Assembly: GCA_016839765.1 (NCBI GenBank)
Contig: JAEOTP010000071.1
Span: 1-64,000, forward strand
Source of the DNA: Promethearchaeota archaeon
Lineage (GTDB): Archaea; Asgardarchaeota; Lokiarchaeia; Sigyniarchaeales; SOKP01
Reading direction: 5' to 3'
DNA: 64,000 nucleotides
This document shows, piece by piece, positions 35,367 to 49,696 of this stretch (its first letter is position 1; the number at the start of each line of letters is the position of its first letter). Below the pieces are notes generated by a model. That model saw only the letters and a program-made list of their open reading frames with translations, was not told the DNA's origin and searched no databases. The translations under genes were made by a program, and so were the position numbers.

Positions 35367-35633
35367 TTATGAGCTAACTAATTGAAAGAGAATCGAGGCA
35401 TGCGGAATGTAAAATTGATCTCCTTTCTTGATTACAACAGTATGGAAGTATTCTGCTAAACCAAGGAATCCGCGAATTACTGATTCATCTTCTTCAAATT
35501 TGAAAACAACTTTAGCGATAGCGGCACTTGTACCAAAAGTAACTTTATCATAAACACGTTCATCTATTAATGGAATTTTAAGTTCATTTACAATCTCATA
35601 GACCCGCTTAATAAAAAGTTCACGCTTAGGAAT
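35367..35633 (-). CDS. Small unrecognised protein with ATT start or +1 frameshift
   Basis: An open frame of 88 codons with protein-like composition (KRELFIKRVYEIVNELKI..., ending LFQLVSS) has no ATG, GTG or TTG near its beginning. On the minus strand GGTGATG (35638-35644) is followed by 4 nt and ATTCCTAAG; ATT (35631-35633) lies 5 nt after the Shine-Dalgarno-like GGTGAT. The alternative is initiation at the overlapping ATG (35638-35640), giving MDYS then TAA, with a +1 shift at TCC-TAA into the main frame. The same layout is found at 49683-49696. A sequencing indel or decayed start is also possible. No family recognised. Confidence 0.6.
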   Translation of the reverse strand: MPKRELFIKRVYEIVNELKIPLIDERVYDKVTFGTSAAIAKVVFKFEEDESVIRGFLGLAEYFHTVVIKKGDQFYIPHASILFQLVSS

Positions 35634-35637
35634 AATC

Positions 35638-35644
35638 CATCACC
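35638..35644 (-). promoter_or_regulatory. GGTGATG start-site element (copy C)
   Basis: GGTGATG, four nucleotides, then ATTCCTAAG: identical spacing and almost identical sequence to the element at 49683-49696 upstream of an unrelated gene. GGTGAT can pair with the archaeal anti-Shine-Dalgarno. Confidence 0.55.
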
Positions 35645-36048: not shown

Positions 36049-36738
36049 TTGGTTTCAAAAGAACAAAAAAAGCTGGAACGCGTTATTAATTTTATGAAAA
36101 AGGGCTTGACTTCTTTATCAGATGATCTTGGGGAAACTGTTAAAGGGATTAATGATTTTATAAAATCTTTAAATAAAGCTATGAAAGATTTAAAAGAAGT
36201 AAAAGTTGAAGCTGAAGTTCAAACAGTTAGTACTTCCTCTAAAATAGTTGCAACGCCGGCTACTGGTAATGTTAAAACGGCTGCTGCGAGTACATTATTT
36301 AATTTATTAAGTGGAGGGAAAACACCAGTTCAAGCACCAACTACTGCTAGTGCTAGTCCTGGACTTCCTAAACCTCCTATAGCTGGAGCTCCAAAGGCTC
36401 CTCCTAGCGGTGGTGGTCCTCCAAAAGCACCACCAGGTGGCAGTCCTCCAACGCGTACTAATTTACCTCCAGCTCCAAAACTACCACCAGTATCAGGAAG
36501 TGGTGCTCCTCCTGTCGCTCCAAGTGGCGGGGTAGTAAAAGCACCAACATTTGCAAAACGAACCGGCCCCCCTGCAGCTCCTACCAGTGGCGGTCCACCA
36601 AGAGCTCCTGGAGCAGTGCCTCCCGTAGCACCAGCAGGATCAAGTGTCGCACCAAGAGCAGGAGGAGGTTTAAGTTCCTTAAGAGATGAGATGCTTGAAG
36701 AATTAAATCGTTTAAAGAAAATAATGAGAGGAGAATAA
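36049..36738 (+). CDS. Proline-rich protein with N-terminal helical domain, next to actin homologue
   Basis: 229 residues in three parts. Residues 1-58 are an amphipathic helical, coiled-coil-like region. Residues 93-203 are a Pro/Ala/Gly-rich linker with many PP and PPxAP units (GAPKAPPSGG, NLPPAPKLPPV, GPPAAPTSGG). Residues 207-227 form a short amphipathic helix (LRDEMLEELNRLKKIMRG). No known family, but the plan resembles eukaryotic WASP/VASP-type proteins in which poly-proline recruits profilin; Asgard profilins are known to interact with poly-proline. The actin homologue is one gene away on the same strand. Codon composition is GC-richer than neighbours because of Pro/Gly/Ala codons. Start TTG 36049; AGAGGA 12 nt before. 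Confidence 0.7.
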   Translation: MVSKEQKKLERVINFMKKGLTSLSDDLGETVKGINDFIKSLNKAMKDLKEVKVEAEVQTVSTSSKIVATPATGNVKTAAASTLFNLLSGGKTPVQAPTTASASPGLPKPPIAGAPKAPPSGGGPPKAPPGGSPPTRTNLPPAPKLPPVSGSGAPPVAPSGGVVKAPTFAKRTGPPAAPTSGGPPRAPGAVPPVAPAGSSVAPRAGGGLSSLRDEMLEELNRLKKIMRGE

Positions 36739-37698: not shown

Positions 37699-38814
37699 AT
37701 GGGAAATTTAACTGTTGTTCTCGATCTAGGATCCTTCGCCACAAAATGTGGTTTTGCTGGAGAAGATATGCCATCTCAGGTTTTTTTTACTATTGTTGGA
37801 ACTCCTAAATACCAACAAATCGATTTTGATTATGGAGGCGCAAAAACCGAGGAATTTTATGTAGGAGATGAAATCCAATCGTTAGGCCTCTTTAAAGTTC
37901 TTTATCCTATTGAAAAGGGAAGAATACAGGATTGGATATCGTTTGAAAAGATTATTGATTACATTTTTTACAACCTTCGAGTAGATCCAAGTTTAGTTAA
38001 TATTCTTTTCGCTGTCCATCCTTTATTTCCCCAGCAAGATTTAGCTCGATTATTTGAATTATTTTTAGAACACTATCAATGTATGGCATTTTATCCAGTA
38101 TTAGATTCAATGCTACCACTATACTCAGGAGGATTTCAGACAGGTTTGGTTGTAGAAATCGGTGATAGTCTTACTAGAATTGTACCAATTTATGAAGGGT
38201 ATAAGCTAGATCATGCAATTCGGATTTTAGAATTGGGTGGTAGAACCTTGACCAGATATATGGAAAAAATCCTAGGGGAGATTGGATTCTCTGCTGACTC
38301 ATCGATAAGACGAGAATTAGTTAGGGCACTGAAAGAAAAAGCATGCTTTGTATCCTTAGACTACAAGGAAGATCTTAAGCGTGTTGAGCAATATGAGAAG
38401 CCTTATTCATTACCTGATGGCTCTACTATTAAATTAAGTGGAGAACGATTTAAGGTTCCAGAACTTTTTTTTAATCCTTCTTTAGAACTTGAAGAAGACT
38501 CATTACCTAAAGCGATAATGGATGTAATAGAAGAATGTGATGTTGATATCCGTCCAGAATTATTAAATAATATATTTTTATCTGGAGGATCTTCAATGTT
38601 CCCTAATTTAAAGTCGCGAATTCATCAAGAGTTAGAATTAGAATTAGCAAAAAGAAAGAAAAAAGGTCAAATTATCAAAATCATTGCACCTAGAGAACGG
38701 GTTTTTTCTGTATGGGTTGGAGGGTCGATTTTATCTATGTTACCAGAGTTTCAAGATTTATGGGTTACAAGAACTAAATATTTTAATGAAGGTATCCCAG
38801 AAGACCTGTTATAA
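37699..38814 (+). CDS. Actin-family protein (divergent Asgard actin / Arp-like)
   Basis: 371 residues aligning along almost all of actin: LDLGSFATKCGFAGED (8-23), FYVGDEIQS, LYPIEKGRIQDW, VEIGDSLTRIVPIYEGY (152-168), LSGGSSMFPN (294-303) and FSVWVGGSILSML (336-348). Several catalytic or sensor positions differ: Gln137 of actin is Asp136, His161 is Arg160, Asp154 is Glu153 and His73 is Lys73. The D-loop is about three residues longer and lacks the hydrophobic tip. The last actin residues are altered (NEGIPEDLL). This is more divergent than the highly conserved lokiactins, so it is probably an Arp-like paralogue with changed nucleotide hydrolysis or polymerisation. Confidence 0.92.
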   Translation: MGNLTVVLDLGSFATKCGFAGEDMPSQVFFTIVGTPKYQQIDFDYGGAKTEEFYVGDEIQSLGLFKVLYPIEKGRIQDWISFEKIIDYIFYNLRVDPSLVNILFAVHPLFPQQDLARLFELFLEHYQCMAFYPVLDSMLPLYSGGFQTGLVVEIGDSLTRIVPIYEGYKLDHAIRILELGGRTLTRYMEKILGEIGFSADSSIRRELVRALKEKACFVSLDYKEDLKRVEQYEKPYSLPDGSTIKLSGERFKVPELFFNPSLELEEDSLPKAIMDVIEECDVDIRPELLNNIFLSGGSSMFPNLKSRIHQELELELAKRKKKGQIIKIIAPRERVFSVWVGGSILSMLPEFQDLWVTRTKYFNEGIPEDLL

Positions 38815-49031: not shown

Positions 49032-49685
49032 TTATTCAAATGTATGAATTTTTTCTTTAAATTGTTCTATTGTGTTTAGGATTTCATTTAATCTTAAATT
49101 AAATTCTTTTGGTTTAATTTTTTTAAATTTTTCAAAATTATTGGCAATTTCTTTGAATTCATCAACCCATATTTTCATTAGAATTTCGCTTTCTTGCCCT
49201 TGAATCCTATTCTTTAATTCTGTTGAAACTAATAACTTTATTTTATCAATGAGTTTTTTTTCATTTATAGCGTAAGATATTTTTAATACATCTTGTTGAG
49301 TTTTAAGAGTACCTAGCTCCTCTGAAACTTCGGATTTATGTTTAAAAAACTCATCATTAAATTTTTTAATCATATCCATTATGATTTCTTCTTGAACTTT
49401 AATTTTTTCCTCAATTTGTTCCCTATTATAATAGGTTTCTTTATTAATATTATTAACATCGCTTTCTAATTTATTGGCTTTTTCTATTACTTCTTGAATC
49501 TCTTTAGGAAGGTTTTTAATAGGATTTAGTTTATTTTCGATTTTTTCAATCCTATCTGTTAAATTTTGAATTGATTTAGGCAAAGTTTTTAATCCATTTA
49601 TTTGATTTTCTATCTTTCTTACTTGATCTGTCAGGTTTTGGAAATCTTTTGGGGTAATCTCTTCTAATTTCTCTTTTTTAGGAAT
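49032..49685 (-). CDS. Coiled-coil protein with unusual start, partner of the small GTPase gene
   Basis: 217 residues if read from ATT 49685. Almost wholly helical and charged, with a tandem repeat at the N-terminus: FQNLTDQVRKIENQINGLKTL then IQNLTDRIEKIENKLNPIKNL. The repeat crosses the TTG at 49583 (which would give 183 residues), so the frame certainly begins further upstream. The only candidates are ATT 49685, 5 nt after GGTGAT, or ATG 49692 with a +1 shift at TCC-TAA. The gene follows the small GTPase gene by 41 bp, forming an operon; it may be an effector or scaffold. Confidence 0.68.
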   Translation of the reverse strand: MPKKEKLEEITPKDFQNLTDQVRKIENQINGLKTLPKSIQNLTDRIEKIENKLNPIKNLPKEIQEVIEKANKLESDVNNINKETYYNREQIEEKIKVQEEIIMDMIKKFNDEFFKHKSEVSEELGTLKTQQDVLKISYAINEKKLIDKIKLLVSTELKNRIQGQESEILMKIWVDEFKEIANNFEKFKKIKPKEFNLRLNEILNTIEQFKEKIHTFE

Positions 49686-49689
49686 CTAA

Positions 49690-49696
49690 CATCACC
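49690..49696 (-). promoter_or_regulatory. GGTGATG start-site element (copy B)
   Basis: GGTGATG, four nucleotides, then ATTCCTAAA: same layout as 35625-35644. GGTGAT complements the 16S 3' end and sits 5 nt before ATT. The overlapping ATG opens MLDS and then hits TAA. Confidence 0.55.

Follow-up and report, generated by a model that had tools for sequence, protein, structure and literature searches.

Introduction

In mitochondria, AUN codons are used as starts (NCBI table 5), and this initiation proceeds with a modified methionine tRNA and with no Shine-Dalgarno (SD) sequence. In eukaryotes, the gene of the initiation factor eIF1 begins with an AUG in poor context and is reached by scanning, and eIF1 is reportedly autoregulated through this start context, as Ivanov et al. 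are said to have described in 2010. In E. coli, the infC gene, encoding IF3, reportedly has an AUU start with autocontrol, a finding attributed to Butler et al. in 1987.

For archaea, the available text of an initiation review gives AUG, GUG and UUG as the start codons, and states that SD sequences are not prevalent in Prometheoarchaeum (PMC7531240). According to the portions at hand of two papers, aIF1 acts against non-canonical (non-AUG) starts in S. solfataricus (PMC8211752, PMC6237735). In the available part of a paper of 2026 in Sci Adv, the tubulin gene AtubA of Kariarchaeaceae is said to have likely a rare ATT start, judged from the N-terminal alignment and a plausible distance to the ribosome-binding site (PMC13394414). 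The corresponding excerpts of PMC12993045 and PMC13371889 mention no AUU start, and in the latter another start codon is predicted for this tubulin gene. Judged by the titles and abstract openings covered by a literature search, AUH starts (AUU, AUC or AUA) in Asgard genomes or in aIF1 appear to be treated nowhere besides PMC13394414. The comparisons below indicate that AUU, and elsewhere AUA or AUC, is very probably the true start codon of several lokiarchaeotal genes, among them the gene of aIF1 itself.

The 88-Codon Gene of the Window

The window, that is, the whole stretch of 64,000 nucleotides that was analysed, is contig 53 of a 96-contig, 3.3 Mb assembly. Its minus strand at about 35650-35620 reads GTGGTGATGGATTATTCCTAAGCGTGAA, and the following features are distinguished there:

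35367..35633, minus strand: 88-codon gene with ATT start, stop included; homologues have ATT, ATG, TTG or ATA at the same codon
35631..35633, minus strand: putative AUU start codon, the second of a tandem ATT pair, aligned to the homologue starts ATG, TTG, ATA and ATT
35641..35644, minus strand: GGTG Shine-Dalgarno core, 7 nt 5′ of the AUU in the window sequence; GGTG lies upstream in 18/19 AUH-start homologues
35626..35640, minus strand: mini-frame ATG GAT TAT TCC TAA (MDYS), overlapping the main frame and absent from the other ATT homologues

The initial annotation had described a clean 88-codon frame lacking ATG, GTG and TTG near its beginning, and this is borne out, none of these codons being present in the whole stop-to-stop frame 35367-35639; the start at 35633 lies outside the standard archaeal set AUG/GUG/UUG. 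The tandem ATT codons occupy 35636-35634 and 35633-35631, the next codons are CCT AAG CGT GAA, and the frame from the second ATT (35633) comprises 88 codons and a stop. It had also been proposed that the ATT after GGTGAT is the start: a start on ATT stands, but the homologues point to the second member of the pair (35633) and not to the first. The overlapping ATG that opens MDYS and ends at TAA is seen as described at 35640-35626, its ATG being at 35640-35638.

The 88-aa protein family has no Pfam match and two insignificant NCBIfam matches, and a comparison with PDB sequences gave one match, also insignificant. The AlphaFold model of the protein is fair (pLDDT 84.6); it has no confident Foldseek match, and VIA-align gave Z of at most 4. 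Elsewhere in the window are a 371-aa frame with an actin-family look by eye (37699-38814) and a proline-rich 229-aa frame (36049-36738).

Start Codons of the Homologues

The gene is present in 49/58 genomes. Its start codon was compared at 76 sites, namely the window and 75 lokiarchaeotal loci, six of which were not read (L084, L106, L115, L121, L122 and L124). At the 70 read sites the start is ATG in 35, ATT in 14, TTG in 12, ATA in 5, GTG in 1 and another codon in 3 (ACC, CTT and AAC). In all close homologues the start codon falls in one alignment column, and the codons after it are mostly CCN AAR or GCN AAR. The ATT of the window gene is beyond chance, because it stands exactly at the codon where homologues have ATG, TTG, ATA or ATT. 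GGTG precedes 18/19 AUH starts versus 14/35 ATG starts (Fisher p 9e-5, uncorrected for shared descent); the counts across relatives given here and below are phylogenetically linked and hence not independent.

It had been considered that a sequencing or assembly error, with one base lost or added, masks an ordinary ATG, which the window alone could not exclude, and comparison of the homologue starts in Asgard genomes had been advised as a check. That comparison proved decisive: the same column holds ATG, ATT, TTG or ATA, with no indel. Since the differences among homologues are third-position substitutions (ATG, ATT, ATA) and not indels, and 13 assemblies besides the window also have ATT at this codon while others have ATA, TTG or ATG, always with frame and spacing kept, the error reading is refuted and its probability is practically nil. 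A second gene and aIF1, described below, show the same pattern.

The initial annotation had further suggested a programmed, antizyme-like +1 frameshift at TCC-TAA, entered from the ATG mini-frame, and in the window ATG GAT TAT TCC TAA does overlap the main frame. However, by eye this mini-frame occurs in 0/13 other ATT homologues, nor does any out-of-frame ATG frame precede the ATT in them; where the ATT stands, homologues just carry ATG or TTG; and no conserved overlapping first frame ending at a shift site, of the antizyme type, was found among the ATT homologues. The comparable frame of the second gene, ATG TTA GAT TCC TAA, is likewise confined to the window copy among the loci read. A frameshift is therefore extremely improbable, and the mini-frame at 35626-35640 is probably incidental and not conserved. 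For initiation at ATT, the other suggestion made for this gene, support comes instead from numerous independent assemblies, from the recurrence of the pattern in the second gene, and from additional genes.

Some homologues carry other peculiarities. In six loci (L059, L078, L079, L082, L113 and L123) ELFI-KRVYE is interrupted in frame by a stop-containing insert, 30 nt in length or, in L059, 33 nt; its removal restores the conserved protein start in five loci, L078 being judged by eye. Paired by hand, the insert forms a hairpin compatible with a bulge-helix-bulge motif, and in these six homologues it probably represents an archaeal intron in a protein-coding gene. A further insert, of ~38 nt, is present in L113. 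In L084 (isolate WORC5), ACG stands at the start column with one extra base shortly after it, which may be an assembly error or another oddity.

The Second Gene of the Window

49032..49685, minus strand: second gene, AUU start, 217 aa, no Pfam match
49683..49685, minus strand: putative AUU start codon of the second gene; ATT at 15/18 loci read
49693..49696, minus strand: GGTG Shine-Dalgarno core of the second gene, separated from the AUU by 7 nt in the window sequence

That the same layout recurs at 49683-49696 had been recognised correctly, with GGTG at 49696-49693 and ATT at 49685-49683. After this ATT (49685) come CCT AAA AAA, and only 34 codons downstream does the frame reach its next standard start. 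At 18/20 loci read, the start is ATT in 15, ATC in 1, ATA in 1 and ATG in 1; L038 (no line) and L050 (another protein) were left out.

Further Genes and the Genome-Wide Share of AUH Starts

A scan of 373 kb of the own genome for SD-led frames with no standard start yielded, by hand count, ~9/321 frames as further candidates, six of which were run through 24 genomes of the genus with two joined queries. The MutY-like glycosylase (HhH-GPD) was compared in 15 genomes and begins with ATT in 11, ATA in 2, ATC in 1 and ATG in 1; in many cases a stop closes the frame shortly before the start, and GGTG precedes 11/14 of its AUH starts (absent in L235, L238 and L245). For the 118-aa protein g118, a locus is present in 8 genomes, 7 with ATT and 1 with ATA. 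The 178-aa protein g178 has an AUH start (ATA or ATT) in 4/22 genomes, all with GGTG, and ATG in 18/22, where GGTG is found in 0/18 within the 28 nt shown. AUH-start genes usually have GGTG, and their AUG versions are often devoid of it. Outside these counts are the membrane protein L126 and the flavin-reductase-like protein L135, to which no start was assigned, and a 152-aa protein represented by its own locus only.

Among 86 reciprocal best pairs taken without bias from two congeners, an AUH start was found only in the two window genes; therefore, the share of such starts is a few per cent at most. As a rough estimate from sequence, ~2-3% of the genes sampled from this lokiarchaeotal genome would use AUH starts, which would also occur across the order. 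The genome statistic was based on SD-led open frames with no standard start for at least 12 codons, its counts being positions and not genes, some of them adjacent in one frame; ATH was found at 11/28 candidate positions in G000, 7/18 in G010, 6/16 in G034, 3/12 in G042 and 7/54 in G056, the excess in G056 being weak. A first census, made with no frame filter, was uninformative because ATT counts for control motifs were as high as for the SD motif. G056 is a distant member of the phylum, and in its sample (L397-L416) a RadA-like frame reads ATT CCT AAA after GGAGG, with the next standard codon 87 codons downstream; this frame is a good single AUH case.

Ribosomal Protein uS12 as a Yardstick

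Since its N-terminus, MGKPKG, is well known, uS12 serves as an outside yardstick. A match was found in 53/58 genomes and 50 starts were examined, G018 (partial), G039 and G041 being left out. In the sample of another genus, uS12 has an ATA start after TTTGGTGTGTTAAC. AUH starts were counted in 8/50, namely ATA in G034, G030 and G031, ATC in G026 and G029, and ATT in G040, G044 and G043, and these eight genomes come from three families within a single order. The ATT of G040 is preceded, at a distance of two codons, by an in-frame TAA, with no standard codon between them. In L463 (the uS12 locus of G029) an in-frame GTG, itself part of the SD sequence, lies 2-3 codons upstream and could serve as start; L473, L475 and L477 are ambiguous and were not counted as AUH. 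When orthologues are compared, all of AUG, AUU, AUA and AUC stand at the start position in sequence, as seen for uS12, the MutY-like gene and the second gene. We strongly infer a wider AUH start code beyond the AUU genes.

The Gene of aIF1

SUI1 genes were found in 34/39 and 17/19 genomes, and aIF1 was identified as Pfam SUI1 (E 7.6e-17). In the wider phylum aIF1 was found in 109/119 genomes. The starts described here are those of 50 genomes from the first two sets; G001 is cut by a contig edge, and the second SUI1 copies of G004, G013, G018 and G036, which have an in-frame GTG, were left out of the count. In 21/21 congeners the gene shows GGTTGTGA, nine bases and ATT AAA GAN, and an in-frame TGA four codons upstream closes the frame; with GGTTGTGA at 9 nt from the ATT, its SD sequence is weak. 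Among these 21 congeners the ATT and the following AAA are invariant and the three codons before the ATT change residue; the codons from 16 onward show silent variation or none, and the zinc-ribbon codons vary mostly silently.

In other genera of the family the start is ATT in G024, G025, G027, G029, G030, G033, G034 and G035, ATC in G026, and ATA, with a possible upstream GTG, in G028 and G036. Beyond the family, starts outside the standard set are found in G040 and G044 (ATA) and, with ATA as the likely codon, in G051, G053 and G054; in G042 and G048 the start is ambiguous, since a GTG or TTG farther upstream may serve. Standard starts are TTG in G046, G049, G050 and G052, GTG in G055, and ATG in G039, G041, G045, G047, G056 and G057. 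Before the first zinc-ribbon Cys, no in-frame ATG, GTG or TTG is present in 35/50 Asgard genomes read. Within the genus the next standard codon comes at residue 41-107, past the conserved zinc ribbon; in L426 and L502 the first one is residue 107 of 110 and 113, and therefore no ordinary start could make aIF1 there.

These data bear on the reading in which the true start of such genes is a standard codon upstream or downstream, the conserved N-terminal stretch being partly untranslated. A few relatives would allow it: three ATT homologues of the 88-aa protein offer a possible alternative start 2-3 codons farther upstream in the same frame, GTG in L053 and L067 and ATG in L073. However, in 11/14 ATT genes of this family no standard codon lies, by eye, between the upstream in-frame stop and the ATT; the window gene is devoid of such codons in its entire frame; the aIF1 gene of the genus is bounded by its upstream stop and distant next standard codon as described above; and the MGKP start of uS12 is invariant. 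A displaced standard start is accordingly very unlikely, and AUH remains the preferred start.

Initiator tRNA and the Proposed Mechanism

With the archaeal initiator tRNA pattern, one perfect match each was found in G000, G023, G010, G002 and G034, the own genome included, and the anticodon is the ordinary CAT. The matches read with a pattern requiring G or C before GGG were not tRNAs, and the same pattern also misses the true initiator tRNA gene. With its CAT anticodon, the initiator tRNA probably reads AUH despite a mismatch at the third base; besides it, a second initiator tRNA of divergent sequence may exist.

The tRNA genes have peculiarities of their own. The initiator tRNA gene of the own genome is interrupted after the anticodon, where tRNA introns usually lie, and again in the T arm; in L316 (initiator tRNA), L161, L165 and L166, inserts are seen at 37/38 and also within the D and T arms, and a single gene may carry several of them. 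ARAGORN misses insert-bearing tRNA genes of the own genome, and it reports L171 as a selenocysteine tRNA there.

The case for AUH initiation consists of codon position and conservation, the link to the SD sequence, the lack of an in-frame standard start, and the single CAU initiator tRNA found. In the proposed mechanism, a strong GGUG(A) SD sequence would position the 30S subunit so that AUH occupies the P site. The usual initiator Met-tRNA, with its CAU anticodon, would then start there with the first two bases matched and the third mismatched; the mismatch would be tolerated and Met presumably inserted.

An AUG might instead be supplied by RNA processing, either by editing of the third base or by splicing of a short upstream exon. 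Such a route draws some plausibility from the many tRNA introns and from the short introns predicted in some 88-aa homologues, in which bulge-helix-bulge introns seem to occur. Against it, the SD sequence lies at the normal distance from AUH, as it does from ATG in homologues, and therefore no exon is missing; moreover, U, A and C would all need to be edited to G. RNA processing is thus very unlikely, and direct initiation on AUH is preferred.

As for aIF1, its gene has a non-AUG start and a weak SD sequence and the product reportedly polices starts, which is how autoregulation would look; the likeliest cause of the AUU start is therefore a feedback, proposed as a good hypothesis, in which abundant aIF1 would lower initiation on its own AUU codon. 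By analogy with known systems, that aIF1 limits its own synthesis through the AUU start in this negative manner is a possibility for which the balance is about even. The full scheme, in which Lokiarchaeia would use all four AUN codons as genome-wide starts under SD control, with stringency set by an autoregulatory loop of aIF1 through its AUU (AUC, AUA) start, we would put forward with equal measures of confidence and doubt. Since gene finders commonly accept only AUG, GUG and UUG, lokiarchaeal annotations probably omit or shorten AUH genes, those of aIF1 and uS12 included.

Comparison with Known Systems

The Asgard AtubA remark (PMC13394414) likewise concerns an ATT start, but in the available text it touches one gene in the Methods and makes no claim on AUA or AUC, genome-wide use or aIF1; it therefore supports the present reading, and the idea of Asgard ATT starts is not wholly new. 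The mitochondrial AUN set comprises the same codons as the putative starts of Lokiarchaeota, the difference being that an SD sequence is present here. AUH starts also allow cheap experiments on start-codon fidelity in Asgard ribosomes.

Another close parallel is E. coli infC. Like infC, the aIF1 gene encodes a start-codon discrimination factor and has a non-canonical start codon; in both, a factor acting against poor starts is encoded by a gene whose own start is AUU. The protein is IF3 there and SUI1 here, in another domain of life; moreover, the AUH starts of Lokiarchaeota are also spread over other genes, and the autocontrol of aIF1 is a hypothesis. Compared with eukaryotic eIF1, the two proteins belong to the homologous SUI1 family and each has a weak start site in its own gene, but the site here is AUU, AUC or AUA with an SD sequence. 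If true, the aIF1 loop would be the archaeal counterpart of the bacterial IF3 and eukaryotic eIF1 loops in the lineage nearest to eukaryotes, and the eIF1 loop would gain a testable analogue in the relatives of the eukaryotic host. If aIF1 limits itself through AUU, the same logic would operate in the three domains of life with different parts.
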